23,826 bases of DNA from Baffinella frigidus (lineage: Eukaryota > Cryptophyceae > Cryptomonadales > Baffinellaceae), in assembly GCA_026770585.1 (NCBI GenBank), contig MU646338.1, positions 115,537-139,362 on the forward strand, in the 5' to 3' direction. The first letter of the stretch is position 1. Each line of letters starts with the position of its first letter. Under the pieces are notes generated by a model that was given only the letters and a program-made list of their open reading frames with translations, did no database searches and was not told the origin of the DNA. A program made the position numbers and the translations under genes. This document shows, piece after piece, positions 6,836 to 23,826 of the stretch.

Positions 6836-6856
6836 CACCTACATGGAGGACGACGT

Positions 6857-7202: not shown

Positions 7203-7258
7203 GTGAGTGGTGAGAAGAAAACACGGATTGCCAGAAGAATACAAGGGCTCACAACCTG

Positions 7259-7490
7259 CTCACCTTCTCCTTCTTCGAGAAGGCCTTGGGAGGAGGACTG
7301 CTAGTGCTGCTCACGCGTGAGGCCGGGGGAGAGCCGCAGGTTTGGTGCGCGACAGGTTAGAGAGCCTCGGGTTTGGTGCGCGATAGGTTTGCTCGGTGCG
7401 GTTTCAGTCCAGGTCGCATCATTGGAGCGTACACCTTCTCCTTCTGCGAGAAGGAATTTGGGGAGGGATTCCCGAGCTGCTCAAAAGGGG
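7259..7490 (+). pseudogene. Two further decayed TFSFFE cassettes
   Basis: 7261-7320 encodes TFSFFEKALGGGLLVLL and 7429-7490 encodes AYTFSFCEKEFGEGFPS, both in the frame matching 7079-7202. Neither keeps the GTGAGT donor. Each breaks into unrelated sequence, the second into a purine-rich tract. Confidence 0.45.
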
Positions 7491-7499
7491 GGCCGACAC

Positions 7500-7610
7500 C
7501 GTCAAGGAGGGGGGCAACGGGGATGGGGGGAAGGGGGAAGGGGAGGAAGGGGGGAGGGGAGGAAGGGGGGAGGGGGGGAGGGGAGAGGGCGGAAAGGGGG
7601 GTTGTTTGGG
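7500..7610. repeat. Purine-rich low-complexity tract
   Basis: Imperfect GGGGAGGAAGG-type units on the plus strand. All frames through it are open only because of composition, so long frames on either strand here are not evidence for genes. Confidence 0.75.
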
Positions 7611-8105
7611 GGACGGACACGTTTCTCGTCTCCAACAGACAGGGGAGGCTCGCCAGAAGTGAGCAGGAAGCACAGATTGCCACAAGAAAACAAGGGTTCA
7701 TAACCTACCGGAAGACAGGGGAGCGTCTCACCCCCACGATACGAGAGGAGCTGGGCGATGCACGTGAGAGCGCGTCTACAGAGGGAGTCCGTTCGGAAAG
7801 GGTTAAGCTGTGGACCCCTTTCCAAAGTCGAGCCGCCGCTCTTCTTGCCCCTTTTCGCGGTTTCCCTTAACCCTAAACCCAAACATGTGTCTGGTCCACA
7901 ACCGAAAACTTCTTTTGCGCGTGTGGTAGGATCTCGGGATTTTAAAGTGCTACACACTCCGTAGAGGGGACGAGATAGAATCTTGTCGTGGTACGAAACG
8001 GACACTGTCGGTTTTCCCCCGTGTCTGGGAAGACTGTTTGGCACCTGAAAAATAGTTAAGCTGATAGAATAGACCTCGGGACCCTGCCCCGCGCCACTTT
8101 CTTAG
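7611..8105. other. No recognised gene
   Basis: A short telomere-like patch (CTTAACCCTAAACCC) sits at about 7866-7882. The open frames are brief and lack recognisable motifs. Confidence 0.4.
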
Positions 8106-8186
8106 AAAGTGGTCAACGTGGCCAGGTTTAGTTAAGATTCACTCACGTCCTCCTGGTTGACTAAACCTGGCAACCTTGGCCACTTA
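8106..8186. repeat. Inverted repeat, 30-base arms
   Basis: Left arm AAAGTGGTCAACGTGG...TTTAGTTAA and right arm TTGACTAAACC...GGCCACTTA with a few mismatches and a loop of about 21 bases. Probably a degenerate miniature element. Confidence 0.65.
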
Positions 8187-8270
8187 TGGCGACAATTCTG
8201 AAAAAGCATCCTTCTTGAAATCGGCCACAAGTTTTCCCGCAGGCGCTCTAGTAAGGAAAAGGTTTAAACC

Positions 8271-8383
8271 TCGGGTCGTTCTAAAAACACAAATCTCAAC
8301 GTTTCGCATTTCATTTTTTGTACAAGGGCGGGGCAGCTCCTATGCGAAACGCTGAGATTTTTGTTTTCTGAGAGGATCCGAGG
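8271..8383. repeat. Inverted repeat, 43-base arms
   Basis: CCTCGGGTCGTTCTAAAAAC...TTTCGCAT pairs with ATGCGAAACGCTGAG...GATCCGAGG across a loop of about 28 bases. Unrelated in sequence to the palindrome at 8106. Confidence 0.65.
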
Positions 8384-8891
8384 TGTAGTAAACAAGAAAA
8401 TTTGTGGGATCGAGAAGAAACTACGGCTTGTCGACACCAGAAACCGCGAAAAGATCCGTTACTGGAGTGTCGAGGAAGCTGTTTAAAAGCCTTTTAAGTT
8501 TGGTCGTCGATTTCTCAAGTCGCCTCAGGTTAAGTCACAAGGGACGTACGTACTCCTCGACGACTTTCAAAATGAGTACCGGGGATTGACTGGATGACTC
8601 TGGAAAGGGGACCAGGGCTGCACCACGTTCTAGTTAGGTTCGGCAAAGAAGGGGGTGCAGTGTCGGGGATGTAATAGTGTGTAAGCCGAGCGTAATTGGG
8701 TGTACGCCGAGCGTAATGGAGCAGGGTGGGGGGCGGTACGGAGTCACGTCTGACATCCAGCTGAGAACAGCTGACGGAGTTTCTTCCCCCCTGGCAAGAC
8801 GGAAACGCGTTTCACACAGAAGTGACGGAACCGGGAATGCCGGAAAAAAGACGGAAACACGGTTTACACGTGGGGGGCAGTAATCTGATCT
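8384..8891. other. No recognised gene; short tandem repeat
   Basis: GTGTAAGCCGAGCGTAAT and GTGTACGCCGAGCGTAAT form a tandem pair at about 8680-8722. No convincing coding frame. Confidence 0.4.
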
Positions 8892-9016
8892 CAGTAAAAG
8901 TATTGATTAATTGTTTTTGGGCAACAAAAATTACTACACACTTGGATCATACTAGTGATAGTAAAAACTTTATGTAGTAAAATTCGTTGCCCCTAACGCA
9001 ATAAATCAATACTGTT
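8892..9016. mobile_element. Inverted-repeat element ending CAGTA...TACTG
   Basis: CAGTAAAAGTATTGATTAA...TTACTACA pairs imperfectly with TGTAGTAA...AATCAATACTG over about 45 bases. The inner motif TTACTACAC recurs at 9500, 22172 and 22229, and CCAATACTGTTACGG recurs at 9569, so fragments of this element type are scattered. Confidence 0.55.
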
Positions 9017-9067
9017 ACGGGGATGAAATCAACGGGGACCGTGTCGGGGCCACGGTTACACGAAATC

Positions 9068-9100
9068 AAAAGCCAAGGTCGCAAATCGACCTTGGCTTTT
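9068..9100. repeat. Perfect 14-bp hairpin with 5-base loop
   Basis: AAAAGCCAAGGTCG-caaat-CGACCTTGGCTTTT. It looks like a bacterial terminator but lies in eukaryotic intergenic DNA with no bacterial-type gene upstream. Confidence 0.8.
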
Positions 9101-9608
9101 CCGTAGGAACCCCCTATTTCCCTACGGTAGGGCCTATGGATTACGTTTAGATGGACTGTTCCATTCTCGCTCGGCAGCGGCTCCAGCAACCCGAATTCGC
9201 GTGTCCGGGGGTTTTATAACCCTCGAATCCTGGTACAAACCCGCGGAATCTCTTGACTGTCACGTCCCAACAGGCGTAGAGAATTCCCAGGCCCGTAGGG
9301 ATTTCCTACCGTAGGATCCTAGGACTGAATCGAACTCTTTGCTTCCTTCGGATGATCGATTTCAAGCTGGTTCGGGTTGCTGGTGGTGAGCGGAGGCTCT
9401 CAGTTGCTTCTGTCAAGGCGACAAGCCGCGGGAGACTCGGGTGGGCAGCAGGATCATCTCCGTACAACTATTTGACTAACCGCGTTTTGCGCAACGTAAT
9501 TTACTACACGAACGTTTGACTATCAGAATGGTCAAATTGCGTAGTTCGTAGACCAGAAGCAACTAACCAATACTGTTACGGAGCTGAAGGCGGGGGGGGA
9601 AGGCTCAC
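9101..9608. other. No recognised gene
   Basis: Contains CCTACGGTAGGGCC (9119) and CCTACCGTAGGATCCTAGG (about 9306), cores like those of families 1 and 2 but without their termini. The next exon of the minus-strand gene ending at 9609 should lie here or further left and was not found. Confidence 0.4.
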
Positions 9609-11162
9609 CCGGGAGTCCTCCCAGCAGCACGTCCCCCCGTCAGTAGCCCTCCCCCACCCCCCACCCCCACGTCCCCCACCCCATACGGGCTCCCAAGACT
9701 GTACAGCCCGCCACCCTTCGGGGTCAAGAACCCTTCCGAGCCGAGCTTCCCCGGCGTCCTCCTCGGGGTGGCTCCGCCGACCGGGGTTCCCAGTAACAGC
9801 GCGCCGTCGGGCGGGGGGCGGCGCGGGCGCCGGAAGACCGTGGACGTCTTGGCGCCAGCGGGGTTGAGGATCACGGTCGGGTCGTCGTCCATGGGGAAGT
9901 GGCGTGTGGCTCGGGACGCGGGGGCGCGCGGGCCCATGGGCTGGGGGGGCGTCTCCGTCTGCCGTGGCGGCTCCGGCACCTGATGTAGGGGGTACACTTT
10001 CACTCTCGATATAGGGGTCACACTTTCACACTCGCTAAGATCGCATGAACGTGTAACCCCCCCCCCCAACCCCCCCAGAGCCACCCGCGTCACTCCCCCC
10101 CCTGCGCCATGTCCCGGGGGCTTTTCACCCTGGTGTGCACTGGACTGAAGCCTGGCTGGTGAAAGCAATGCGTGGAAATGGAAGAGATTTTGTTGGGCTC
10201 ACTATTTTTCAGCCCGGTGCTCGCTGGACTGGATCCTAGCGCCGCTGCAGCGTGCGCTCCGATGGGTATGGTGAAACCGCGAATTCCTCTCTCTCTGTAA
10301 ATCCAAAAATGCCCAGAAATGGCTGCCTCGGGCGCCCGGGGGGGGGCATTTCCGCTTTCGGCGGCTCGGGAAGATCACTCAACTGAAGGCTTAAGAGCCT
10401 GTCTAGGGTCTGGTTCGAGAGTAATAAAGAAGAAGAAGAAGACGAAGAAGCAGAGCTGGTGCGAAAAACAGGCGGCACGGGTCCTGACCCATCTACTGAA
10501 AAGCCACAGGGGAAGTCTCAAAAAGTAGGCGACAGGATCCTGTCGCCTACTTTGGAGCCATTTTTTCCTCAAAAGGCAATTTTCACCCCAAGGACGTGAC
10601 CAAAATTCGTCAAAAGGTAACCTACAAGCAATTTTAGTGTCGTGTCCAAGAATTTGAGACTTGCCCTTTGGCTTTGCAGTAGATGTCTCCGACACCCACG
10701 AACATGAAGGTGCTGCCAAAAGTCTACCGTGCGGGAGTGGAGTGGGGTGGGGGGGGGACCGCAGACGAGCGCTCACTCTCGATGTGGATGTTGACTTTGT
10801 GTTGGTTGACGGGCGCGTGCGGTGGCAGCGACCACTGCCCAGGGGGGGAAACGAGGTTTCATAAGCTGACAACCACGACCGCTTCACGCCAGGGGGAGAG
10901 GCTGGACGAGACCAGGGCGTGGGGGGGNNNNNNNNNNNNNNNNNNNNNNNNNNNNNNNNNNNNNNNNNNNNNNNNNNNNNNNNNNNNNNNNNNNNNNNNN
11001 NNNNNNNNNNNNNNNNNNNNNNNNNNNNNNNNNNNNNNNNNNNNNNNNNNNNNNNNNNNNNNNNNNNNNNNNNNNNNNNNNNNNNNNNNNNNNNNNNNNN
11101 NNNNNNNNNNNNNNNNNNNNNNNNNNNNNNNNNNNNNNNNNNNNNNNNNNNNNNNNNNNNNN

Positions 11163-11223
<61 letters not shown>

Positions 11224-12564
11224 ACCGTGGGTACTTTGCGGTCAGGGTCCCCCATGGCTAGCTTGATGAGCGCGCTGTCGTCAACTTTGAGCGATAAGTT
11301 GCACTTGACGCACGTCTGCTGGCTCAATCCTTGCAGCTTCCTGCACACCCTCCGACGCGTCACCAACCGCTGTGCCTCCACGCATGCCATGCGCCGTCTG
11401 CTCCACCGTCTAGCTCTGCCCGAGTTTTATTCTAGCTGGTCCTGAAAAGTACTAAGCGCAGAAAGCAAGTACAAAAAGGGCGAATAGCAAGCCTTTAGAA
11501 CGCGCCAGAATAAAACTCAGGCAGAGCTAGAAAGGCCCACCGTCCAAGCGGCATCACCCGCCGCTAGGCTGTTCTAGGCTGTTGCGGTGCTGTTCCAGGC
11601 TGCTCCAGACTGTTCCAGGCATTCCCGGGCTGTTAAGGTACTGTTCTAGGTAATTCCAGGCTGTTCTAGGCTGTTGCGGTGCTGTTCCAGGCTGCTCCAG
11701 ACTGTTCCAGGCATTCCCGGGCTGTTAAGGTACTGTTCTAGGTAATTCCAGGCTGTTCTAGGCTGTTGCGGTGCTGTTCCAGGCTGCTCCAGACTGTTCC
11801 AGGCATTCCCGGGCTGTTAAGGTACTGTTCTAGGTAATTCCAGGCTGTTCTAGGCTGTTGCCGTCTGCCCCAACGTGTGTAACTCTCTCCCTGGCTCTCC
11901 CTGGAAAGTCATCGGCCAACCACCCCAGCGGCATCACCCGAACCACCCAGAGGGGGGTAGTAGAGGTGACACGCCCGAGAGAGGGAGATCGACGCCGCAT
12001 GCCTAAACCCTAAATCCTAAACCCTAAAGGATCCCGCACCAACGGTTGGCTAACGCTCCACACAGGCAGCCATTGCCACCGCAACCTGCCCCGATCCTGC
12101 CACCCTCACCAGCTGTCTACCCCTGGCGGCCTGGCGGAGGCAGCCCCTAATTGTGATCCAGACATGCACCGCGCAAACCCACAGCTGTAGGGCGCGTAAA
12201 TGCGACCCGACAGCAAAAATGCTTTTTCTGCAGATCCTTTCTACGGAAGGGCGTGGTGTCGGGCTATGTTGGGAGCATTTAAAACCTCGTATATTCTCGT
12301 GTGCTGGAGAGGTTGAGCACGGGTGCGCAAATCCCTTTGTAGCCCGCTGTGTGGTACAAGGGAGTGGAATCCCGGGCAGGCAAGCGCTGGAGGGGTTGAC
12401 CCTCTTTCTCTCCCTCTCCCTCTCTCTCTCCCTCTCCCTCTCCCTCTCCCTCTCCCTCTCCCTCTCCCTCTGGAATCGAGCACGCACCCGCAAAAGGGGC
12501 ACATCTGGCCGTCAGCTTCCTCCGCGGGCGCAGCTGCCTTCGAGGGCGACTCCTCCTCCTCACC
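9609..12564 (-). CDS. Multi-exon zinc-ribbon protein of unknown function (five exons joined)
   Basis: Minus-strand exons 12564-12488, 11340-11226, 10834-10760, 10723-10661 and 9979-9609. Acceptors are CAG, CAG, CAG, TAG and CAG; donors are GTGCGT, GTACCC, GTCCCC, GTCTCA and GTGAGC. Phases are 2, 0, 0, 0 and 2 and agree at every junction. The first exon is acidic, then MCPFCG; joining the second gives CPFCGKLQGLSQQTCVKC, a CxxC-11-CxxC treble that looks like a zinc ribbon. Next come VDDSALIKLAMGDPDRKVPT, PPHAPVNQHKVNIHIESE, TFGSTFMFVGVGDIYCKAK and a Pro/Gly/Thr-rich disordered stretch with TPRRTPGKLGSEGFLTPK. That zinc-binding Cys pairs are restored by splicing is the best evidence. Donors 3 and 4 are weak, and the 9979 exon is joined on phase only. 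The 12715-13437 frame may be its 5' part. No family recognised. Confidence 0.5.
10110..10275 (-). repeat. Two copies of a coding-like segment also present at 13180
   Basis: On the minus strand, ALGSSPASTGLKNSEPN (about 10240-10190) and PGFSPVHTRVKSP (about 10155-10115) share a pattern with ALGFIPPSTGVKISETN at about 13230-13175. DNA similarity extends upstream into GAGCCGCCGAAAGC at about 10360 and about 13270. This is either a repeat protein or decayed exon copies. Confidence 0.45.
10522..10553. repeat. Perfect 32-base palindrome
   Basis: AAAGTAGGCGACAGGA followed immediately by its exact complement, with no spacer, centred on GGATCC at 10537/10538. It is intergenic or intronic relative to the minus-strand zinc-ribbon gene. 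Confidence 0.85.
10928..11162. other. Assembly gap (235 N)
   Basis: Flanked by 7 G on the left and 60 G on the right, inside the intron between zinc-ribbon exons 11340-11226 and 10834-10760. True length and content are unknown. Any frame passing through it is meaningless. Confidence 0.98.
11163..11222. repeat. 60-base poly-G tract
   Basis: Uninterrupted G run. On the minus strand it is a C run starting directly after the intron donor GTACC of exon 11340-11226. A shorter C run follows the GTACC donor of LSG1 exon 17023-17082. Confidence 0.9.
11410..11530. mobile_element. Family 4 element, copy 2
   Basis: CTAGCTCTGCCCGAGTTTTA at the left and TAAAACTCAGGCAGAGCTAG at the right, about 121 bp, non-coding. 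Lies in the zinc-ribbon intron, 69 bases from the acceptor side of exon 11340. Confidence 0.7.
11571..11870. repeat. 92-base tandem satellite, about 3.2 copies
   Basis: GTTCTAGGCTGTTGC starts at 11571, 11663 and 11755, with a partial fourth start near 11847. The units are almost identical. Each unit is itself made of CTGTTCCAGG-like blocks of about 10-12 bases. Intronic. Confidence 0.85.
12001..12029. repeat. Short telomere-like patch
   Basis: Four near-copies of CCCTAAA on the plus strand within the minus-strand zinc-ribbon intron, so the orientation is opposite to the long tracts in NGDN and LSG1. Confidence 0.7.
12400..12472. repeat. CTCTCC microsatellite
   Basis: CTCTCC/CTCTCT units immediately following (minus sense) the donor GTGCGT of exon 12564-12488. 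Arg/Glu or Ser/Leu repeat frames across it are artefacts of composition. Confidence 0.85.
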
Positions 12565-12714
12565 CTGCGAGTGGGTCGTGAAATTAATAGATTTTCGTCT
12601 CCAGCATAAATAACCCAATAAATTATAATTCGTCTCTAACGCCTCAATCCACTATAATCTGGATTGAAACTGCAGTTCCCCCGGATATCCGGGGGGAGAG
12701 GAACTCCGCCGTTG

Positions 12715-13437
12715 CTAAGTGGCCGCGAGACTCTCAGATGCGCCCTTGTCAGCGACGTGCGTTGCGCCCTTGGGAAAGCGGTGTGAGGCGCTGCGGACGG
12801 GGTGGGCGCTGGGGGGGAGGCCCACCACTGCGAGGGTGATTTCCGGGATCTCGAATGCCTCATCTTCCGAGGCCTTTGAGAATCCGGAGTCTCGGAGGGA
12901 GGCCTTGGAGACTCCGGAATCTCGGAGGGAGGCCTTGGAGAATGCGGAATATCCGGAATCGCGAAGGCCAGAGATGCGAGAGGATACGTTGTCGTTGGGC
13001 GGGTCCTTGCTCTCTGGGGCATGGCTTGCGGCGCCAGGGCCTGGAGTTTCCCCCTCCCCATCCTCCTCCTCTTCAATCTGCAGCCCGGGAATCGGGTCGC
13101 TTTTCGGCTGGTTGGGGATCGGCGCGCTGGCCGGCTGGTCCAAGCCCTGAGTGGCACTCGCAGCCACTTCGTTGGTCTCACTGATTTTCACCCCGGTGCT
13201 CGGTGGAATGAAGCCTAGCGCCGCTTCAGCGTGCGCCCCGCGGCGCTGCAGCGCCGGGGGCTTTCGGCGGCTCAGGAAGGAGAGGCACGAAAAGTGAAAG
13301 CAGCCGGCACGGGTGCTGCTTCCGTCGCTGATGTCCTCCCACGCATGCGAACCTCGCATTCCATCTCCGAGCCCACCTTCCGTCGATCCCTGTGGAATGG
13401 CTGGGGCATGCGTCCCGGGTGGGGGGTGTCCCCCCAT
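12715..13437 (-). CDS. Long acidic, repeat-bearing frame, probable upstream part of the zinc-ribbon gene
   Basis: A 240-codon minus-strand frame with an acidic block (IEEEEDGEGETPGP), a low-complexity PNQPKSDPIPGL segment and a 30-base tandem repeat giving three approximate copies of SLRDSGVSKA. After EDEAFEIPEITLA a GTGGTG could serve as donor in phase 0, which would fit the phase-0 start of the next exon at 12564. The part before about 13260 reads less like protein, and a CTGCAG acceptor there may be the true exon start. The opposite strand is also open through the repeat because unit length is a multiple of three. The protein would be disordered and phosphorylatable (Ser-rich). No family recognised. 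Confidence 0.4.
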   Translation of the reverse strand: MGGHPPPGTHAPAIPQGSTEGGLGDGMRGSHAWEDISDGSSTRAGCFHFSCLSFLSRRKPPALQRRGAHAEAALGFIPPSTGVKISETNEVAASATQGLDQPASAPIPNQPKSDPIPGLQIEEEEDGEGETPGPGAASHAPESKDPPNDNVSSRISGLRDSGYSAFSKASLRDSGVSKASLRDSGFSKASEDEAFEIPEITLAVVGLPPSAHPVRSASHRFPKGATHVADKGASESLAAT

Positions 13438-14228
13438 CCTGACCCAGGTCTTCGCCCGACTCCGAGTCGCAGGGTATGCGACGCCGGCCGATTCTGGAGG
13501 GGTCCGTCGCGGTCGTGGGCGAGATCGGCCGTCGTCGTCGGTGACACTTCGTCACTCACGGCAGGGTCTCTGCAGAGAGGGGTCCGGGGATCTGCCGCTT
13601 CTTCGGTCACCCGTTGCGGGGACCTTTTAAAGTCAACATCATGCCTAAAGTTCACAAGCCCTGGAGCCTCGTAACCTCAAGATCCCATCGCGTTTTTAGG
13701 GATTTCGGCGGGCGTCGGAGAAACGAGAAGATGGAGGTTGCGGTGTTTGTCGCAGCCAAGTGTCTTCTGGGCTAAGCTGGCATCGCACTCGACGGTTTCC
13801 ACACCACGGTGGCCTCCGCACTGCGCTCCCCACACCACCACCACTGTCTGTTCTTACTTGCTGCTGCACAAACACCTCCCGGGTATGCCTCACAGAACGC
13901 CGCCGAGGGTTTTCTGAGGCAAGAAGGGGCTGGTCTGCTCCAGTGGCATTCCGTACCACGGTTGGTCGTACGGCCCCTTGGCCAAGAACGCGGGCTTAGG
14001 AGCCTTGCAGCCTAGATTTACCGTGGCCAACACCGTGCGCTAAACCACCCTGAGTTTCTCGGCTGACCTTCTAGCCCCGGACAGGACAAACAGGCGCAAT
14101 ACGTGGATCGCCAAGAGCAGTCGTACCAGGAGGAGCAGGAGGAGGAGTCGCCAGCCCTGAGGCCTGGAGAAGTCTCGTCCACATATTTCTTTCCAAGGAT
14201 CAACTTCTGTTCAAGGGATCGAGCCGGC
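13438..14228. other. No recognised gene
   Basis: Several open frames on both strands of Arg/Ser/Pro-rich composition, none with conserved-looking motifs or supported splice borders. Confidence 0.4.
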
Positions 14229-14547
14229 ATGGTCAGCGAGGGAGGGGCAAAGCCGCGAGGGAATGGCAGGACGGAGCAGTGTCGACAGCGTCGAGTGGGA
14301 GATCAGCCCAGATGGAGGGCGCGCGGCGCGTCGAAACTGCTGGTGGCAGTGCTCTTGGCATGTGCGGCGAGCGGGGGCGAGGGCGGGCTGAACCACTTCA
14401 AGCGCAACGGGCAGCAGACGCGGCAGAAGCTGTCGCACTCCTCAATTGTCAACACTCTGAACAAGGGCAAGGTGCGGCAGATGAAAGAGGCGGCGGAGAT
14501 GGCCTGGGATCAGCAGCTCTACAGGCACCGTCCCCGCCAGCTCCTGC
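14229..14547 (+). CDS. Candidate exon, unknown protein
   Basis: Open frame from ATG 14229 to a consensus-type donor GTGCGT (14548), the same donor used in NGDN, LSG1 and the zinc-ribbon gene. Its second half looks like ordered protein: GGLNHFKRNGQQTRQKL, SIVNTLNKGKVRQMKEAAEM and AWDQQLYRHRPRQLL. A hydrophobic stretch (KLLVAVLLACAAS) precedes it and could be a signal or membrane segment, but the Arg-rich start before that may not be coding. It ends in phase 1 and I could not join it to the LSG1 exon at 15964 (phase 0) or to another exon. It could be the 5' part of LSG1 with a missing intermediate exon, or an independent gene. Confidence 0.35.
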
Positions 14548-14908
14548 GTGCGTGCCCATACGGGAGGAGCGTGTTGGCTACTGCCCACTTGCGGGATAAG
14601 AAAGAGTGTAGCAGATGCAGCGACGCGTGTAGAGCACCGTGCGCAGATTCCCCCATGAGATTCGCGCCCCCTGCCACGCCCCGCGCGTCGATGGTTAGGC
14701 GCCACTCATACGCGGGTGGCGCGGGGTGACCACCAGCAACCCGCAGCAGCTTTTACCGGATCCTTGCAAAATCCGGGAATGAAATTCTTTTTTTGATTCA
14801 TTTGTAGGACCCTACGGTACGAAACCCTAGGGACCTCGAATTACTGACGGGAGATACCGAAGAGATTTCTTCGGTTTAGCTGAAAATTACTTCACTACCC
14901 GACCCGGT

Positions 14909-15012
14909 TATCCCTTAAGTGGCGGACGGGCGAATATTCACCCTAACTCGCCCTAGGCAGGTCCTAGGGCCCTACCGTAGGGCGTATGAGCCTACTCGCC
15001 ACTTAAGGGATA
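14909..15012. mobile_element. Family 2, copy 2 (104 bp, reverse orientation)
   Basis: TA-TCCCTTAAGTGGCGG...CTCGCCACTTAAGGGA-TA with the core GGGCCCTACCGTAGGGCG. Its core is inverted relative to copy 1. Confidence 0.85.
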
Positions 15013-15366
15013 AGCTGCTACGAGTCGCTGGTGGGGGTGACGCAGGCAGGTGGCGCGAGGCGTGAGAGGCACGCGATGCTGAGTGGTGGTGCAGGTTTCG
15101 TCGTTGGTTCGGATGGGGCGTGGTGGTGCAGGTTTCGTCGTGGTGGTGCAGGGTTCGTCGTTGGGTCGGGTCCATCCTCTTCATGACACTCACGTGTAAG
15201 GCGTGGGTGGTGCAGGGAGGGGCAGTCGATTGTGGATGACGAAGACCCTATCATCCGCCTGCTCATGAGCAAGGTCCGCGCCCAAACTGCATCCACTTCA
15301 TCCTCTGAGTTTCAAGTTAGAATCTCGCAGGGCAGGCCCCCCAGCATTCACCACTAGCCCTTGGAG

Positions 15367-15455
15367 GTGCCTCAAATAGGTCTCTCGGACATTTTCGATT
15401 TACCTTGACATGCAAGGTAAAATCGAAGACCTTCCAGGGGACTGTTTGAGCCACC
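15367..15455. mobile_element. Family 3 palindrome, copy 1
   Basis: GTGCCTCAAATAGG...CGATTTACCTTG pairs with CAAGGTAAAATCG...CTGTTTGAGCCAC. Shares arms with 17945-18053 (TCAAATAG, CTTCGAT, ACCTTG). Confidence 0.7.
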
Positions 15456-15709
15456 TGGGATGGCTGGTGGCAGGATGGGGGCACAGGACCTTGCCTGTCT
15501 CGTTGCCTTGTTGCTCAGCGTTCCTGCCAGCTCGTGGTGTCGGTGCAGCGTTGCTGCCACGTTGGATCGTGTTGTGGGTGCGATGGCATGCGATGGGCGC
15601 TCCGAGGGCGGCGAGATGCTATCTACCACCACGCCTCACCCCTGATGCACCCTACTCCGCAGGTCTCGAAGACCCTGGCAACCCCTGGACCTGAACCGCG
15701 ATGGCATGC

Positions 15710-15815
15710 CGCCTAAGATAGCATCATTGTATGCCTGAAATAGCATATGAACCCTTATCTTCGGCGTCGGAAGCCTAAGATAGCGGGACATAATCTGTCG
15801 TGTTCCGAAATTAAA
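15710..15815. mobile_element. Fragment related to the element at 23556
   Basis: Shares CCTTATCTTCGGCGT and a GTTCCGAAAT end with 23556-23685. The left terminus is not recognisable. Confidence 0.4.
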
Positions 15816-15963
15816 TTATTAAGGCGCTCGCGCGCGCGGGGCGCGGACGGGTTGAGCTGAGCGCTCTGGCGTGTGTGGAGCGCGCTTCCGGAAGAGCACT
15901 CCGAGTCCGCAGGGCAAATCCATACACGTGACTCGCTTATGTGTCATACGATCGCGGATGCAG

Positions 15964-18900
15964 AATTCGCTGGCGGACGACACGCGAGAGACGAAGCTGA
16001 TCGTCGGCGGCAAGATCGTCTCGGGCGGCGACTCGAAGCCTCCTATCCCGGGGGAGCTCCTCGAGCTGCCGATCCCACGGCGCCCCCCCCGCGCGTCGTT
16101 TGGGACGGATGTGGAGAAGCTGGTGGCTGCTGAACAGGTGCGTACGCGCCACACCAGACGCCCTGTGTGCCCTCTGTATCCCCTAAGTGGCTGACGGGCG
16201 AATATTCGCCCTCACTCGCTCTAGGCAGGCCCTAGGGCCCTACCGTAGGGCGTACATGCATACTCGCCACTTAAGGGATAGCGCTGTCGCTGACGCTGTG
16301 TGTGGGTGCGCGCGCCTGTCTACTCGCTGACAACGTCAATCGCCGCTCTGCCTGTTTGCAACGCCTGTCTTGAAACATCCACGAGAGACGAGGCAGCGTG
16401 CGGGGGGCGTGGCTGCCCTAAACCCTGAACCCCAAACCGTGAACCCTAAACCTTAAAACCCTGAATCCTAAATCCTGAACCCTAAACCCTGAACCCCAAA
16501 CCCTAAACCCCGAACCCTGAACCCTAAACCCTAAACCCTAAACCCTAAACCCTAAACCCTGAACACCCTAAACCTCAAACCCCAAACCCCAAACCCTAAA
16601 CCCTAGACCCTAAACCGTAAACCCCAAACCATCAACCCTAACCCCTATTCCCTCACCCTAAACTCTAAACCCTAAACACTGAACCCTGAACCCTAAATCC
16701 TGAACCCTAAACCCTATACCCTAAACACCCTAAACCCTAAACCCTAAATACCCAACCCTAAACCCTACCCTTAACCTTGAACACTCAACCCTCAACCCGA
16801 AGCCTTAAACCCTAAACCAGAAACTCTAAACCCTTAACCCTAAACCCTAAACCCTAAACCCTAAACCCTAAACCCTGAAACCGGAACCCTTAACCCCAAA
16901 CCCCAAACCCAAACCCTAAACCCTTAACCCTAAACCCCCAACCCCGAATTCCCAACCCCAAACCCCAAACCCCAACACCCAAACCCCAAACCCCAAACCC
17001 CAAACCCCAAACCCCGCACCAGGATGAGTTCATGCGGTGGAGAAAGCACCTCGCGCTAGTCGAGGACTCGTACGCTGTCACGGTACCCCCCCCCCCCCCC
17101 CCACCCTTTCTTCACTTGTCAGAAAATTGGATACGAGCCCTCCTCCTCCTTGCATCCGCTCCTCCCGCCTCCCTCCTCGCTCCATCCGTTTTTTGTCCTC
17201 CCTCTTCCCTCCTCCCCCTCGCCTGCCCCCCCCCCACTCCTGCCTCCCCCCACCTCACTCCTATTTCCTCCCTCCTCCCTCCTCTCTCTCGACTCATGTT
17301 TCTCGCCTGCTCCTACTCGCCCCCCCCCCGCTCCCGCGCGCGCCGGGTCCACTTGGCTGCCCGGGCTGACAGTTGCTGCTGCGTGGCTAGGCGTGGCAAA
17401 GCGTGGCGAGGCGTGAGCGAGGATGAGGCAGGCGAGGCGTGCGCGAGGGCGGGGCAGACGGCGGGGGTGGAGGGGGCTCCGTGTGTTTGACCAGTCTGTG
17501 ATTTGACCAGTCTCGAATTTGACGCGCGTCGCCTGGGCAGATCACGCCGTACGAGAAGAGCCCTTACTTCTGGCGCCAGCTATGGTGCGTTTCCCCCTAC
17601 CCCTCCCCACATACGCGGAAGCGCAAGTTGGAGAGTTGAGCGGTGGGAGCGAGCGTGCAGGGGAGGCTCGAGTGCTGAGTGGAGGGGGGGTCGATTGTAG
17701 CTTGCTGGTGTACGATCAAAATCAACTTTATGGTAGGCTGATTTGGGGTGTGCGGCAGGCGCGTGGTCGAGCGGTCGCACCTCGTCCTCCAGGCACGCGC
17801 CCCCCCTCCTCCTCCTGGAAGAGATACGATAGAAGGGGTTGCGACGAAAATAGGCTTTAACATGCGTCCCCGCCGCCCCCCCACCCTTCTTACCTGCCCC
17901 CCCCACGCTCTTCAACCCCCCGGACATCCCACCAGCCCTCCCAAGTGGCTCAAATAGTGCCCTGGAAGGTCTTCGATTGTACCTTGGATCGGAGTCGGAT
18001 CCGACCCCAATCCAAGGTAAATCAGAAATGCCCCAGCGCACTATTTGAGCCACGCTCCAACCCCTCGCTCAGAGGTACCCTTGTAGAGGGGGGGTTGCTG
18101 TAGGCCTCACGGGCCAGGGCGTCTCTCAGCGCCGCTGCCTCTGCCTCCCGACTCAGCACTGCTCTCTCTCTCTCGCTCCCAACTGTCTCTGCCGGACCGG
18201 TGCAGACCGGATCACCTCTCCAGCCCTCCTGACCTGGTCGGCCGATGCTCCAAACCTCCCCGAGAGCGGTACCCCTTAAGTGGCCAGTAGGCTCATACCG
18301 TAGGGCCCTAGGACCGAAATGTCCTAGGGTGGTCCTCCACAAGAGGCGTGGCCAAGTGTGGAGGCGATTGACTCTTGTGGAGGAGATTGGCTGACACGCA
18401 CGCGGCACTCAGGTGGTGGACTGCCGCACCCCCCTCCTCTACCGCTCGCGCGCCCTCGAAGACTACGTCGCCGAAGAGCCTGAGGAAGGCTTGGGCGTCG
18501 CGGCTGACGGCAGCGCGCGGGGGGGGCGGAAGACGCACGCGCTGTTGTTGAATAAGGCCGATTTGGTCCCGCGGGCGGTGCGGCGCGCGTGGGCGGCGTA
18601 TTTTAAGGGGATTGGGGTGGAGGCGTTCTTCTTTTCGGCTGCGGATGAGGCCCCGGTTGATGGAGAGGCTGAGGAGGATGAGGAGAGCTGGGAGGAGGAT
18701 GCGTGGGGGAAGGCGATGGGGTCTTTTGATGCATCGAGAAGAGGGAGGGGGCGGGACGCTGCTGCGGGTCAAGGGGAAGAGGATATCCCGCTGGCTGGCG
18801 ATGGAAAAACTCCCGCGAAGGAGGAGGAGGACGACGACGAGTCAGACGGGGCGGGAGGGGTCATGCGCGGGGGGGAAATATTGGGAGCGGAAGAGCTGCT

Positions 18901-20878
18901 GGACCAGCTTGTGGCCCTGGTCCGAAGAGAAGCCGCAGCCAACGGGGCTGCGAAGGCTCGGGGGGCGCCAGACGTGGGGAGCAGAGACGCGCCTGATCCA
19001 GGTGATGAAGATCAGTTGTGGGACGGGTCGGAGGAGGAGGAGGGGGGGGGGGGGGGGGGGAAGGGCGCGGGAGCGGGGGGGCGCGTGACGATTGGGATGG
19101 TCGGGTTTCCGAATGTGGGGAAGAGCTCTGTGGTTAACGCGCTGTCGAGTGGGTGCTACACCCTCAACCCTTGACCCTGAAACAAAAACAAACCCTGAAC
19201 CCTGAACCCTAAACCCTAAACCCCAAACCCCAAACCCCAAACCCCAAACCCTAAACCCTACACCCTACTACCAAACAAATGAAATTTAAGAAAGAAATAG
19301 CCGCACCCCAAACCCTAAACCCTAAACCCTAAACCCTGAACCCTACACCCCAAACCACAAACTCTCAACCCTAAACCCTAACCCCTAAACCCTAAACCCC
19401 AAACCCTAAACCCTCAACCCTAAACCCTAAACCCTAAACCCTAAACCCTAAACCCTAAACCCTAAACCCTAAACCCCAAACACTGAACACCAAACCGTAA
19501 ACCATACCCCCCAAGCCCTCACCCCTAACCTTCAACCCCTCAACCCTACACGTGACTGTCAAAGCGCCTGGCGCACGGGTCGCCCCCCTGGCAAGCCGAA
19601 GCACCTCCAGATGAGCATCATGCGGGAGGACGCTAAACCCTCAAACCCAAACCCTCAAGGTGTGGGTCGTGTCAAGCCCGGGGAAGACGAACCCCAAATC
19701 AAGCCCTGGGAAGACGAACCCTAAACCGTGTCAAGCCCGGGGAAGACGAAGCCTAAATCCCAACCCCTACAGGTGTGGGTCGAAGCGCGTGGCGCACGGG
19801 TCAAACCCCGGGAAGACGAAGCACCTCCAGACGATCATCATGCAGGAGGAAGCTAAACCCTCAAAAATCCAAACCCTGAAGGCGTGGGTCGAAGCACGCA
19901 GCGCACGTGTCAAGCCCGGGGAACACGAACCGTAAATCCCAAACCCTACAGGTGCCCGGGGAAGACGACCTCTATGGTCAAGCCCGGGGTAGACGACCCC
20001 TAAATCCCAACCCCTACAGGTGCGGATCGAAGCGCGTGGCGCACGGGTCGAACCCCGGGAAGACGAAGCACCTGCAGACGATTATCGTGCGGGAGGACGT
20101 GTGCCTCGCGGACTGCCCCGGCCTGGTCCTGTCCTAAACCCTTCTTGTGGCGGCCGCCGCAAACCCGACACCCTGAACCCTCAGCGCTGAACACTGAACC
20201 CTATACCCTATTCCCGAAACCCTGAACTCTAAACCCTAAACCCTGGACCCTAAATCCTAAGCCCCAAATCCTCAACACTCAACCCTCAACCCTAAACCCT
20301 CAACCCTAAAACCTCAACCCTCAACCCGCGTCCCCACCGTCTAATCCTTAAGCCCTAAACCCCAAACCCTAAACCCCCTGAACCCTCTACACCCTCAACC
20401 CTCAACCCCAAACCCCAAACGGCAGGTGCTCCCCTCCGTGGTCTCCCGGCGCGAAGAGATGGTGTGCGGGGGCATCGTCTCGCTCCACACCCTCAAGGAG
20501 GTGCTCGCGCCCGTGCAGCTGGTGGTGGACTCGGTGCCGCGCGCGGTGCTCGAGGAGCGGTACGGCTTCCCGCTCCCGATCCGCCGCGCGCTCGCGCGCC
20601 CCGCGTCCCCCCTGCAGCGCTCCCTCGACCTCGTGCGAGCCGCGCGCATGCAGCGCCTCGCCGCGCCCCCGGGGGCGTCTTCCGGCGCGCCGCCCGAGTC
20701 CATGATCGTGGAGACCGTGGTCGCGACCGACTTCCTCGACTGCTTCTGCTCCGCGCGGCGCCTGTTCCAGCAGGGGAGCGGCGTTGCCGACCACCACCGC
20801 GCGGCGAAGATGGTGCTCGCCGACTTCATCTCGGGGAAGCTGCCCCACTACTCGCTGCCCCCGCCCATCCCGATGTGA
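15964..20878 (+). CDS. LSG1: LSG1, circularly permuted 60S-maturation GTPase, 7 exons, N-terminus missing
   Basis: Family role: cytoplasmic GTPase that releases the export adaptor NMD3 from pre-60S ribosomes. Exons: 15964-16137, 17023-17082, 17541-17584, 17759-17792, 18413-19152, 20020-20125 and 20426-20878. All phases agree and give 536 residues. Landmarks in the partial product: IPRRPPRAS; DEFMRWRKHLALVE (59-72); ITPYEKSPYFWRQLW rebuilt across junction 3; RVVERSHLVLQ|VVDCRTPLLY; G4 NKAD (151-154); G5 SAA (179-181); an acidic/poly-Gly insert; G1 GFPNVGKSS (335-343); G2 PGKTK (363-367); G3 DCPGL (382-386), then VLPSVVSRREEMVCGG. The order G4-G5-G1-G2-G3 is diagnostic of the permuted class. 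Donors are GTGCGT, GTACCC, GTGCGT, GCACGC (a GC-AG intron), GTGCTA and GTCCTG. The stop lies just after GKLPHYSLPPPIPM, shorter than usual at the C-terminus, and overlaps a good donor (AT|GTGAGG), so further exons are possible. N-terminal exons were not found. Confidence 0.9.
16177..16280. mobile_element. Family 2, copy 3, in LSG1 intron 1
   Basis: TA-TCCCCTAAGTGGCTG...CTCGCCACTTAAGGGA-TA, 104 bp, beginning 40 bases after the donor of exon 15964-16137. The interior closely resembles copy 2 (GACGGGCGAATATTC). Confidence 0.85.
16415..17016 (+). repeat. 600-base telomere-like tract in LSG1 intron 1
   Basis: CCCTAAA and variants (CCCTGAA, CCCCAAA) on the sense strand, essentially filling the second half of the intron and running to within about 7 bases of the acceptor (GCACCAG, exon at 17023). 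The last 60 bases are nearly pure CCCCAAA. Confidence 0.9.
17945..18053. mobile_element. Family 3 palindrome, copy 2, in LSG1 intron 4
   Basis: GTGGCTCAAATAGTGCCCTG...TACCTTGGAT pairs with ATCCAAGGTAAAT...GCGCACTATTTGAGCCAC. Better preserved than copy 1. Confidence 0.75.
18270..18384. mobile_element. Family 2, copy 4, truncated, with a hairpin at its right end
   Basis: TA-CCCCTTAAGTGGCCAG and part of the core are present (to about 18330), then the right terminus is replaced by TCCTCCACAAGAG (18333-18345), which pairs with CTCTTGTGGAGGA (18372-18384). It ends 28 bases before the acceptor of LSG1 exon 18413. Confidence 0.55.
19165..19548 (+). repeat. Telomere-like tract in LSG1 intron 5
   Basis: Begins within about 12 bases of the donor GTGCTA and consists of CCCTAAA/CCCCAAA/CCCTGAA units on the sense strand. 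It is broken by an A-rich insert at about 19271-19302 (AAATGAAATTTAAGAAAG). Confidence 0.9.
19555..20010 (+). pseudogene. Array of decayed copies of the LSG1 G2 exon
   Basis: At least five partial copies of exon 20020-20125 lie upstream of it in the same intron: 19557-19632 (frameshifted, PPGKPKHLQ), 19656-19693, 19726-19750, 19770-19851 and 19880-19935; a sixth remnant is at about 19948-19990. The 19770 copy keeps the TACAG|GTG acceptor and encodes the same residues as the true exon from Cys-Gly-Ser to the Ile-Ile after HLQT, including PGKTK, but lacks the G3 DCPGL part and any donor. Copies pass directly into CCCTAAA-type sequence. Confidence 0.85.
20135..20418 (+). repeat. Telomere-like tract in LSG1 intron 6
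   Basis: Sense-strand CCCTAAA, CCCTCAA and CCCCAAA units fill most of this 300-base intron from just after the donor to the acceptor (AAACGGCAG). A non-repeat patch lies at 20140-20170. Confidence 0.85.
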
Positions 20879-21113
20879 GGCCTGCGCTGTTACGCTCGGT
20901 CTGCAGCTCGTGGGCGTGCTGCGTGTACATGTACACGAGCGCGTGCGTGTGCGGGCGGGTGGGGCGCAGTACAAAAGCCACCAAGTCAGCGCGTCGCCCT
21001 GGTCCCCCTCTAGCGGCCCGCGGCGGGCCCGTCCCTAGATTAGGTCCGCGCATTCATAGCTAGCAGCCCCCACCGAGTCGGGAGCCAGACCTGCTGCACG
21101 TGTAATCAACCTC

Positions 21114-21236
21114 CACAGGGGTGCCTCGCTCATAAGAAACCGCCCCCCCCTAGAACCCTGCAGTACGCCTATGCCGAGGGCCCTATGGTGGTCCTAGGGA
21201 AGGGGGGCGCTTTCTTATGAGCGAGGTACCCCTGTA
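21114..21236. mobile_element. Family 1, copy 5
   Basis: CACAGGGGTGCCTCGCTCAT...TTATGAGCGAGGTACCCC, ending TGTA. The right flank (CCACAGCC) matches an element-free copy of the flanking repeat at 22916, which places the junction at TA. Confidence 0.8.
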
Positions 21237-21319
21237 CCACAGCCACGTTCACGGCTGCCAATATCTCCCGCCAGAGCGCTCCCGACGCATCCCCCGACGC
21301 CTGCCTCGCGTCCATCGGG
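21235..21319 (-). pseudogene. Exon-like fragment trapped between two family 1 elements
   Basis: Minus strand reads DARQASGDASGALWREILAA and then VNVAVV, matching the LAAVNLAVV part of the segment at 22877-22983. It is bounded on both sides by family 1 palindromes, so its continuation is lost. Confidence 0.4.
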
Positions 21320-21440
21320 TACAGGAGCACCTCGCTCATAAGAAACCGATCCCCCCTAGGACCCTACAGTAGGACCATGCCTATGGCCCTACGGTGGTCC
21401 TAGGGGGGGGGCAGTTTCTTATGAGCGAGGTACCCCTGCA
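21320..21440. mobile_element. Family 1, copy 6
   Basis: TACAGGAGCACCTCGCTCAT...ATGAGCGAGGTACCCC, ending TGCA, 121 bp. Slightly diverged ends. Confidence 0.8.
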
Positions 21441-21616
21441 ACGCACTGACAACCAGGTAACTAGGCCGACGGTAAATGTATTGCCTACGGTAGACCGCAG
21501 GGGCCTGCGGCTCCTACGAAAACCCAGCCGGGGGGCAGGGGGGCTCCTACGAAAACCCAGGTCCTAGGGGCCCTACGGCCCACCGTAGACCTAACTACCC
21601 GGTTTTCAGTCCGTTA
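21441..21616. repeat. Short direct repeat spacer
   Basis: GGCTCCTACGAAAACCCAG occurs twice (about 21509 and 21543), followed by CCTAGGGGCCC core-like sequence. Probably the remains of another element. Confidence 0.45.
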
Positions 21617-21721
21617 TATCCCTTAAGTGACCAGTAGGCACATACGCCCTACGGTAGGGCCCCAGGACCTGCCTAGGACCTCTTGGCCGTCAAATTTTGC
21701 GGCATGGGCACTTGACGGATA
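21617..21721. mobile_element. Family 2, copy 5 (105 bp)
   Basis: TA-TCCCTTAAGTGACCAG...GGGCACTTGACGGA-TA; the core is CCCTACGGTAGGGCCC, and the interior is nearly the same as copy 6. Confidence 0.85.
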
Positions 21722-21745
21722 GGCGTGTCTTGTGCGTCGCGCGCC

Positions 21746-21784
21746 TCACGAGAGGCCTCCGTTCTCCTCGACGGTGTTGCCGCG
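21746..21784 (-). pseudogene. Copy 1 of the VEVSGGLS terminal segment
   Basis: Minus strand encodes GNTVEENGGLS followed by TGA. The upstream part is cut off by a family 4 element starting at 21792. Confidence 0.4.
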
Positions 21785-21791
21785 CGCGTGT

Positions 21792-21953
21792 CTAGCTCTG
21801 TTCCACTTGAATCGGGCTCGACAATTTGTCGAGGCCCAAATCGCAACGGTTCGCCAAAAGTTGATAAATTCCCTTGAAAAAATAGACTTTTGACGATTTG
21901 GGTCGAATAAAAGGACACAATCGATTTAGTCAACCCGAGTGAAACAGAGCTAG
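21792..21953. mobile_element. Family 4 element, copy 3
   Basis: CTAGCTCTGTTCCACTTG...and CGAGTGAAACAGAGCTAG, about 162 bp. The A/T-rich interior contains GACAATTTGTCGAGGC and ACTTTTGACGATTTG stretches that pair internally. Non-coding. Confidence 0.65.
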
Positions 21954-22258
21954 GACATCTCAACGCTACAACTTTGGAGGCCTACGCCACTCGACGACGA
22001 GCTGTGACCCAAATCCAGATGAGTCCTTCTATTATTTGGCACTTTGTAGTACAAATTGGTCGAGTAGATGGACGCACGTCCGTATTCCGGACGGCAAGGC
22101 TCATTCTTGAATTTAGTACCAGGAATTGAATTTTGGGACGACTTAACTTTTCCAGCCCATACCAAAAAAAAGAATTTACTACACGTGGACGACCCGAAAA
22201 GAGGTCGTCAGTTTTCAAGTTTTTCACCGTGTTTACTACACAGCCCAGGGTCGCGTGG
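21954..22258. other. Gene-free spacer
   Basis: Contains CGTCCGTATTCCGGACGG (a small hairpin) and two TTTACTACAC motifs flanking a GACGAC...GTCGTC inverted pair (about 22170-22238). No gene recognised. Confidence 0.4.
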
Positions 22259-22455
22259 CGTGAATCTACGCTGGCGTCCTCATAACCTTGCGTCCGTACA
22301 GGGGTACCTCGCTCATAAGAAACCGCCCCCCCCCATAGGACCTCATAGAGCCCTAGGCATAGCCCTACTGTAGGGCCCTGGGGAGGGGCGGTTTCTTATG
22401 AGCGAGGTACCCCTGTACGTGAATCCACGCTGGCGTCCTCATAACCTTGCGTCCG
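22259..22455. mobile_element. Family 1, copy 7, between 38-base direct repeats
   Basis: The element occupies 22297-22417 (TACAGGGG...CCCCTGTA). Immediately left (22259-22296) and right (22418-22455) is the same 38-base sequence, CGTGAATC(T/C)ACGCTGGCG through CTTGCGTCCG, with one mismatch. No other bases intervene. Confidence 0.85.
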
Positions 22456-22515
22456 CAGGCGCCCTTGGAGCCTAGATACCAACAAGACACGAGAGCACTT
22501 GACGAGAGGCGTCCA

Positions 22516-22858
22516 CTCACCTGGCTCTCTCCAGCCAATGGCTCAAACGTCTGTCGAAGCGGGCCTATCCCCGGATACAGGGGCACCTCGTGTATCCCTT
22601 AAATGCCCAGTAGGCTCATACGCCCTACCGTAGGGCCCCAGGACCTGCCCAGGACCTCTTGGCCGTCAAATTTGGCGGCATGGGCACTTAAGGGATAAGA
22701 AACCGCCCCCCCCTCTAGGACCACCATAGGACCCTAGGCATGGTCCTACTGTAGGGTCCTATGGGGGGGGCAGTTTCTTATGAGCGAAGTACATCCGCTC
22801 ACCTGGCGCCCTCCAGCCAATGGCTCCAAGGTCTGCCGAGGCGGGCCTATGCCCAGAT
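22516..22858. mobile_element. Family 1, copy 8, with a nested family 2 element and 62-base flanking repeats
   Basis: Element 22576-22793 starts TACAGGGGCACCTCG, is interrupted by family 2 (22593-22697), and resumes AGAAACCGCCCCC to GAGCGAAGTACA. The flanking sequence CTCACCTGGC...GGGCCTAT...GATA is at 22516-22577 and again at 22798-22858 with about eight differences. Confidence 0.8.
22593..22697. mobile_element. Family 2, copy 6, nested inside family 1
   Basis: TA-TCCCTTAAATGCCCAG...GGGCACTTAAGGGA-TA, 105 bp, in the left arm of a family 1 palindrome at the TA of CTCATAAGAAAC. The left host bases (CCTCGTG) differ slightly from the consensus. Confidence 0.85.
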
Positions 22859-22876
22859 AGTCCTGGCCTCGACGCG

Positions 22877-22983
22877 TCACGAGAGGCCGCCGCTGACCTC
22901 GACAGTGTTGCTTACCACAGCCAAGTTCACCGCTGCCAACGTGAACGCGCTCGCGAAGCATCCCACGACGGCTGGCTGTGTCT
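22877..22983 (-). CDS. Candidate terminal exon, copy 2 (VEVSGGLS end)
   Basis: After a possible acceptor (GATGCAG) the minus strand reads TQPAVVGCFASAFTLAAVN, then LAVVSNTVEVSGGLS and TGA. Hydrophobic and then a short polar tail. The tail and stop recur at 21746 and 23007. Which copy, if any, belongs to a working gene is unclear, and upstream exons (to the right) were not found. Family unrecognised. Confidence 0.35.
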
Positions 22984-23006
22984 GCATCCGCCTCACGAGA
23001 AGCGCC

Positions 23007-23078
23007 TCACGAGAGGCCGCCGCTGACCTCGACGTTGTTGCCTGTCACGTACGAGCTCGCGCTGCACGCCGCGGCCAT
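23007..23078 (-). CDS. Candidate terminal exon or mini-frame, copy 3 (VEVSGGLS end)
   Basis: From ATG 23078 the minus strand reads MAAACSASSYVTGNNVEVSGG, then LS and TGA (23 residues). A GTGACAG acceptor lies just before the shared part (GNNVEVSGGLS), so the ATG may be fortuitous. Confidence 0.3.
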   Translation of the reverse strand: MAAACSASSYVTGNNVEVSGGLS

Positions 23079-23119
23079 GGATGTCAGCGCAACCTCTGGA
23101 TATAAGGATAAAGGCAAGG

Positions 23120-23224
23120 TATCCCTTAAGTGGCGAGTAGGCTCATACGCTCTACGGTAGGGCACTAGGGACCTGCCTAGAGCTTCCGCAGGCGATTATT
23201 CCCCCGTTGGTCACTTAAGGGATA
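23120..23224. mobile_element. Family 2, copy 7 (105 bp)
   Basis: TA-TCCCTTAAGTGGCGAG...TGGTCACTTAAGGGA-TA. The right half is more diverged (CTTCCGCAGGCG) than in copies 5 and 6. Confidence 0.85.
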
Positions 23225-23296
23225 GGTCTGGACATAGGAACATAGATAAAGTCTCATGGCCTCATGGCCATGGTGGTGAGCGCAAGGCTAGAGGGT

Positions 23297-23421
23297 TACG
23301 AGAGAGAGGGGGGAAACCGCCCCCCCCAGGACCCTACAGTAAGACCATGCCTGGGGCCCTCTGGTGGTCCTAGGGCGGGGGACGGTTTCTTATCAGCGAG
23401 GTACACATGTACGAGAGAGAG
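23297..23421. mobile_element. Family 1, copy 9, left-truncated, between 12-base direct repeats
   Basis: 23311-23411 retains AAACCGCCCCCC, the core and the right arm (GGTTTCTTATCAGCGAGG) but not the left terminus. TACGAGAGAGAG occurs at 23297-23308 and 23410-23421. The repeat is low complexity, so this case is weaker than copies 7 and 8. Confidence 0.6.
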
Positions 23422-23555
23422 AGTGCCGCCCCGACAGACGTCCCAACCATGTGTGAGGATCGCGTTATTGCGTGGGTAAATGGGGGGTGGGTTGCCTTTT
23501 CAGTCGTGTGAAATAAACTCATCCAGTGTTCTGACTATGGAGGTAAGGGCAGGTA
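23422..23555. other. No gene recognised
   Basis: Short spacer without notable motifs. Confidence 0.4.
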
Positions 23556-23685
23556 ATCTCGGAACCTAACAGAATCTGGTGTGTATCCTGAGGCTGCCAA
23601 CGCCGAAGATAAGGGTGGATACGCTCTTTTAGGCTTAAAACCTTGGATGAGTGTACATATTTACAGATTCTGGTATGTTCCGAAA
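23556..23685. mobile_element. Inverted-repeat element ending TCGGAAC
   Basis: ATCTCGGAACCTAACAGAAT at the left; CAGATTCTGGTATGTTCCGA with AAAT at the right. Contains CGCCGAAGATAAGGG, shared with 15750-15770. Non-coding. Confidence 0.6.
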
Positions 23686-23723
23686 TGAGGCGATGGAGGT
23701 GGGCGCTTCCCAACGCCAGCGAG

Positions 23724-23826
<103 letters not shown>

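Follow-up and report, generated by a model that had tools for sequence, protein, structure and literature searches.

How does an intron come to hold repeated partial copies of its downstream exon, and what does their presence mean for the choice of splice site? Both questions are raised by a gene of the cryptophyte Baffinella frigidus, a cold-water alga, that lies in the 23,826-nucleotide stretch of DNA analysed here (the window). The copies fill the end of the eighth intron, directly upstream of the working ninth exon, and are mixed with telomere-like sequence.

The gene and the copies in its eighth intron

Judged by its sequence, the gene is LSG1, a circularly permuted GTPase (Table 1). The translation of the ten exons equals, residue for residue, the deposited 719-aa protein T484DRAFT_1880213 (P0001, hypothetical protein, Baffinella frigidus); exons 5-10, the array region included, had been fixed before P0001 was known, and exons 1-4 were placed using it. 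The closest PDB structures are named Large subunit GTPase 1 (best E 8e-62), the Pfam assignment is MMR_HSR1, and the motif NKAD precedes GFPNVGKSS, PGKTKH and DCPG, the order of a circularly permuted GTPase. We take these four motifs to be G4, G1, G2 and G3, respectively. All 18 splice sites of the model are GT/GC or AG, with AG acceptors in nine of nine introns, GT donors in seven and GC donors in two; the acceptors read CAG in all nine cases, and donor base +4 is C in eight of nine. With the full-length protein as the query, P0001 was the sole near-identical match among the best 120 of 2631 (7988 candidates scored), and with the C-terminal part, none exceeded 61% identity among the best 120 of 171 matches. 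The deposited protein model uses the last, working copy of the exon only and skips all copies in the array; going by this deposited gene model, the mature mRNA is predicted to join exon 8 to position 20020.

The original prediction held that at least five copies of the exon encoding GSKRVAHGSNPGKTKHLQ lie in one intron, amid CCCTAAA-type repeats. Such copies are indeed present at 19552-20019, and division of the array by eye yields eight copies, each covering part of the first half of exon 9, namely two long (A and E), one medium (F) and five short ones (B, C, D, G and H). When the working exon (20020-20125) was aligned locally with the intron (19153-20019), the best match, at 19773-19850, scored 64.0 (71 of 78 positions identical) and the second, at 19559-19632, scored 49.0 (62 identical), compared to a best score of 18.0 among 200 dinucleotide shuffles of the intron. 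Further matches scored 27.0 (F with G), 18.0 (D), 17.5 (B with C) and 13.5 (H), three of these being at chance level against the exon alone; the short copies are weak matches to exon 9 but closely alike among themselves (families D3, D4 and D8). The long copies differ mutually and from the exon at 8-14 of ~80 bases (10-18%), with A and E identical at 66 of 80.

Exon base 1 is the starting point of five copies (A, B, E, F and G), each of which immediately follows an intron-type tail that ends in CCCTACAG, CCCTxAAG or a remnant thereof; the other three (C, D and H) begin within the exon, near position 25. In A and E, the exon-derived part stops near position 80 and CTAAACCC follows; F and the short copies stop near position 48 and are mostly followed by telomere-like sequence. 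Copy E, the one near 19770, retains its acceptor together with the complete G2 part but has no G3, as had been proposed; the accompanying statement that it has no donor needs a caveat, given that the next copy starts AAG/GCGTGG (the slash marks the boundary) 109 nt further on and that GC donors occur at two of nine introns of this gene.

Table 1 Coordinates of the gene, its exons and the repeat features within the window
Feature	Position	Strand	Description
LSG1 (large subunit GTPase 1) gene, by sequence	13397..20878	+	ten coding exons
LSG1 exons 1-5	13397-13447, 14085-14524, 15216-15273, 15964-16137, 17023-17082	+	
LSG1 exons 6-10	17541-17584, 17759-17792, 18413-19152, 20020-20125, 20426-20878	+	
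Telomere-like array, intron 4	16416..17014	+	without copies of neighbouring exons
Exon 8	18413..19152	+	carries the G1 motif; donor TGG/GTGCTA, lowest score among 9 donors
Intron 8	19153..20019	+	867 nt; contains the array of exon copies
Telomere-like CCCTAAA-type array, intron 8	19157..19551	+	C-rich on the gene sense strand; 4 AG and 1 GT in 395 nt
Higher-order block 1	19549..19772	+	copies A, B, C, D; aligned end to end with block 2
Copy A	19552..19632	+	exon positions 1-80; acceptor broken (CACG); one base inserted; 67/79 identical to exon
Copy B	19660..19694	+	acceptor AAG; 16-nt gap relative to F
Copy C	19695..19726	+	short, internal exon piece
Copy D	19727..19752	+	short; exon positions 25-50; 22/26 identical to exon
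Higher-order block 2	19770..20019	+	copies E, F, G, H; overlaps block 1 by its first 3 bases (acceptor CAG)
Copy E	19773..19852	+	exon positions 1-80; whole G2 segment, without G3; 72/80 identical to exon
Copy F	19882..19930	+	exon positions 1 to ~48; acceptor AAG; starts GC
Copy G	19952..19973	+	short; intact CCCTACAG acceptor before it
Copy H	19974..19999	+	short, internal exon piece
Working exon 9	20020..20125	+	G2 (PGKTKH) and G3 (DCPG)
Intron 9	20126..20425	+	telomere-like at 20161-20420; without copies of neighbouring exons

Among 18 comparisons of LSG1 exons with their adjacent introns (100 shuffles each), exon 9 vs. intron 8 was the only strong pair (64.0; shuffle maximum 15.5), and the presence of copies of other exons in adjacent introns is rejected on these grounds. 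The score of 23.5 for exon 8 vs. intron 8 was reached by none of the 100 shuffles; it comes from a gapped alignment of ~260 nt across the copy stretch, in which the longest exact stretch is 10 nt, and we read it as a reflection of like composition, the shuffles diluting the exon-like part in C-rich repeat. For the remaining 16 pairs, the observed score was reached by 7 to 100 of the 100 shuffles, and a run of seven pairs (60 shuffles) agreed with this. Elsewhere in the window (1-19152 and 20126-23826, both strands), exon 9 scored 18.0 to 21.0, within the values for 10 shuffles of the 19-kb part (17.5 to 24.5), and a search of the repeat piece against viral contigs gave 0 matches.

The window carries several other kinds of repeats. 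An inverted-repeat family of ~120 nt (TACAGGGGTACCTCGCTCATAAGAAACCGCC...) is found at 4433-4553, 5262-5382, 21115-21235, 21322-21438 and 22295-22419, with arms that are 86-98% complementary, like those of small non-autonomous DNA transposons. A second palindromic family, recognized by eye and absent from the inverted-repeat listing, has ends like TATCCCTTAAGTGGC / CACTTAAGGGATA (~14909-15010, 16176-16281, 21620-21725, 22594-22700 and 23120-23230) and occurs also within LSG1 introns 2 and 4. Two long hairpins (1304-1481 and 1543-1694; arms of 82 and 69 nt, 96% complementary) sit between probable exons of a minus-strand Sas10-family gene, and a 92-bp tandem repeat (11566-11861; 3.2 copies, 100% match) lies ~340 nt past a run of N and 60 G.

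Origin of the copies

Blocks 1 and 2 align end to end with a score of 134.5 (300 shuffles: mean 19.2, maximum 33.5), the longest gap being 16 nt, and the sequence directly after copy H is working exon 9, which can be aligned with A and E. The array thus consists of two complete tandem units, after which the live exon forms the start of a third. The two-block structure was absent from the original prediction and is added by the present analysis; the two full blocks plus the working exon lend support to the earlier proposal that the head of the exon was repeatedly duplicated together with telomere-like sequence.

Passive genomic tandem duplication across the intron/exon boundary, followed by decay, is very probably the origin of the copies. 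The arrangement expected from such duplication, an intron tail joined to an exon head in the same orientation and adjoining the parent, is found in A, B, E, F and G as well as in both whole blocks. Because A, B, E, F and G carry the intron tail, they were made from genomic DNA and not from spliced RNA, and retroposition of mRNA pieces is ruled out by this tail; C, D and H, which begin inside the exon, are uninformative in this respect. Segments reaching from within the telomere-like intron repeat into the start of exon 9 would have been duplicated head to tail at least twice, with exon-side ends near position 80 for the long copies and near position 48 for F and the short ones; C, D and H probably stem from further amplification of a short internal piece (approximately exon positions 25-48 plus repeat); and a whole block of ~224-250 bp was duplicated, as the end-to-end alignment of A-D with E-H shows. 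G3, the donor and the 3' side of the exon survive in the last copy alone, which for this reason remains coding, the others having become intron and drifting. We infer the order of these steps from the arrangement of the copies.

Signs of decay include the 1-nt insertion and the lost acceptor in A, the AAG acceptors in B and F, and early stops. When A, E and exon 9 were compared position by position, A differed at 10, exon 9 at 4 and E at 3, all three differed at 1, there was a gap at 1, and 62 were the same, counts that are too few to date or order the duplication steps. Copies A and E share ATG (Met) where six of six aligned LSG1 proteins (the model's own included) have Val, suggesting a common ancestor that separated from the live exon 9 first and only later gave rise to A and E; the shared codon could also stem from gene conversion or a parallel change. 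What speaks against passive decay is that E is better preserved than A (3 vs. 10 private differences) and encodes the residues of exon 9 for 22 codons, which could reflect constraint or gene conversion. Over 25 codons, E differs from exon 9 by five synonymous and two amino-acid changes; the probability of at least five synonymous changes among seven is 0.014 when both copies are taken as unconstrained and every single change as equally likely, 0.053 with transitions only, and 0.106 under a rough expectation of 0.41 (one copy drifting, one constrained).

Two further explanations concern the array itself. Long simple arrays are difficult for short reads. The Baffinella draft (534.5 Mb, 41.1% repeats; annotated with the JGI pipeline and accompanied by RNA-Seq from the same strains) was assembled, for strain CCMP2293, from Illumina reads with AllPathsLG, according to the assembly description in the genome report (PMC9756366), and the array could, on this account, be an artefact of short-read assembly. 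We regard such an artefact as unlikely to the point of being almost negligible, given that the long copies diverge from each other and from the exon by 10-18% over ~80 nt, that the longest exact repeat is 24 nt in 19552-20125 and 54 nt in 19153-20425, both shorter than the reads of 100 or 150, and that 17500-23826 contains no N; a short-read assembly may still misstate the copy number. A different account invokes repair synthesis, whereby breaks or stalled forks on the G-rich strand of the telomere-like array were repaired through template switching or by telomerase-type synthesis, and exon ends were copied together with the repeat. This account, which overlaps with tandem duplication as a possible cause of its first step, is consistent with the seven G-quadruplex-type motifs on the antisense strand of 19153-19551 and with exon-side junctions that, by eye, seem to share at most ~3 nt with the repeat. 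However, intron 4 has 12 such motifs and intron 9 has 4, yet neither carries copies of neighbouring exons, and blocks that align end to end are the outcome of simple tandem duplication, so that we consider repair synthesis an unlikely, if conceivable, source.

The telomere-like filler, whose repeat unit is CCCTAAA, is strongly asymmetric with respect to splice-like dinucleotides. Across the three telomere-like stretches in LSG1 introns (1,254 nt in total), 10 AG and 5 GT occur on the sense strand, compared to 128 AG and 178 GT on the antisense strand, and being almost free of both, the sense-strand filler may come at little cost to splicing. The C-rich strand is the gene sense strand in four of four assignable arrays (16138-17022, 19153-20019, 20126-20425 and a short one upstream of a probable minus-strand Sas10-family exon starting at 311), a count that excludes telomere-like stretches at 1-135, near 6500 and near 12000, to which no intron can be assigned. 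Since the opposite orientation would place an acceptor-like TTTAG/G in every unit, selection on array orientation is a reasonable guess, although n = 4 proves nothing. Both LSG1 and the probable Sas10-family gene of this window are, we assume, linked to ribosome assembly. The telomere-like arrays of introns 4 and 9 come without copies of neighbouring exons, and thus, the telomere-like repeat alone does not bring decoys.

Splice choice at the copied boundaries

Over 24 nt, the acceptor region of E (19752-19775) matches that of the working exon (19999-20022), 247 nt downstream, without a difference, and therefore, the choice between the two cannot rest on that stretch. The acceptor CAG is kept only in E and G, B and F have AAG, and A has CACG. 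Copy A is followed by a donor-like AAG/GTGTGG and has lost its acceptor, whereas E keeps the acceptor and its later site is AAG/GC; each long copy is without one full site, which, with two copies, may be chance. Scoring of acceptors had no power, with AGs inside the copies beating the real sites (top scores over 16 of 17 positions).

Exon 9 begins with GTG, and the copied boundaries read CAG/GTGTGG (E), CAG/GTGCCC (G) and AAG/GTGTGG (B). The recursive-site pattern YAG/GT is present at E and G; B has AAG/GT and F has AAG/GC. When each donor was left out of its own model, the donor of exon 8 scored -0.9, the lowest of nine, the others ranging from 3.6 to 7.8, and the donors that would be re-formed by joining exon 8 to a copied boundary (TGG/GTG...) scored -0.2 (B and E) and 1.6 (G).

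The claim that use of a decoy would wreck the protein is borne out in part. Translation that reads on from B, E or G meets an early stop. However, the acceptor of F, which is AAG compared to CAG in nine of nine acceptors of the model, opens a frame that continues through exon 9 and exon 10 and adds 46 residues, and B, E and G, if spliced again, leave the mRNA unchanged. The latter possibility amounts to a ratchet (recursive) mode of splicing, whereby exon 8 is joined to a copied (C/A)AG/GTG boundary, a 5' splice site is re-formed, and a second splice yields the correct mRNA, so that the copies would act as stepping stones that do no harm or are even of use. Zero-length use of B, E or G would indeed be silent in the mRNA, the three re-formed donors score no lower than the own donor of exon 8, and the identity of the E and real acceptors implies that another factor must decide. 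Yet, in a donor model built on 8 sites, 34 positions of intron 8 reach -0.2 and 15 reach 1.6, boundary A is broken, F reads GC, and in an intron of merely 867 nt, one step suffices. We accordingly hold recursive use of the copies to be doubtful, and the scores of the re-formed donors would be a lead rather than evidence of use.

The same early stops could serve regulation if E or G were used as a decoy or poison exon that tunes the LSG1 level. In favour of this, translation from acceptor E, G or B terminates upstream of exon 9, both the acceptor and the frame of E are intact, private differences are more numerous in its sister A (10 vs. 3), and the synonymous excess of E vs. exon 9 (5/7; P between 0.014 and 0.106) adds a weak point. 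However, A, C, D and H are without a usable acceptor, the 10 vs. 3 difference is itself weak, the deposited model has no such isoform, and no second near-identical LSG1 was found among the best 120 of 2631 and the best 120 of 171 matches. Such regulation is very unlikely, and its original proposal is not supported by the broken acceptor and 1-nt insertion of A, the early stops of B, E and G, and a deposited model that uses the last exon only. Tandem alternative exons are expected to have both splice sites and a usable frame, a combination found neither in A and E nor in the short copies: the donor candidates of E are AAG/GC at 109 nt, which causes a frameshift, and GTGGGT at 111 nt, which is in frame and has no AG before it, and the short copies are too short.

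Relation to known systems and possible consequences for intron growth

Duplication across the boundary followed by decay, the reading that we prefer, has a described counterpart. Boundary-crossing tandem duplication that turns exonic sequence into intron has been reported for the potato RdRp gene, where the upstream exonic piece is now intron (PMC4974935). As in that report, the duplicated segment in LSG1 spans the end of an intron and the start of an exon, the upstream exonic sequence is intronic, and the splice signals are inherited from the parent boundary; unlike the potato gene as described there, in which a new intron was gained, LSG1 has its copies in an existing intron, and they are several, form a higher-order block and are accompanied by telomere-like filler. 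In tandem exon duplication, as characterized in PMC9013439, exon-like copies likewise adjoin the parent exon, and some lie unannotated in introns, whereas the LSG1 copies are truncated on the 3' side, are missing most splice sites and do not resemble alternative exons. In searches of open papers, most of them not aimed exactly at this, the top matches included no account of exon heads arranged in a multi-unit array with telomere-like filler.

The juxtaposed acceptor and donor at E and G, use of which would leave the mRNA unchanged, resemble the YAG/GT sites known as recursive splicing sites (PMC5126111); unlike the sites covered in that source, those of LSG1 are known from sequence alone, lie in a short intron and arose by copying of an exon start. 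Interstitial telomeric sequences and telo boxes (PMC6410037, PMC3022908, PMC7215372) similarly place a plant-type telomere motif inside genes, here LSG1 and probably a Sas10-family gene; unlike telo boxes, which these sources present as short motifs enriched in 5' UTRs, the LSG1 arrays are long, degenerate and intronic.

The locus is a clear snapshot of an intron acquiring copies of its downstream exon. It also offers a clean test of splice choice, with two acceptor regions that are identical over 24 nt, just one of which leads to the known protein. Although we put this forward with little confidence, an exon that starts with GT may allow repeated, low-cost copying of its upstream boundary, the cost being low because each copied acceptor would re-form a donor and be spliced out in a second step; in combination with splice-silent, C-rich telomeric filler, ratchet copies of this kind could let the introns of this alga expand into coding sequence. 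Re-splicing of the copied boundaries, should it occur, would provide a simple route for harmless intron growth.
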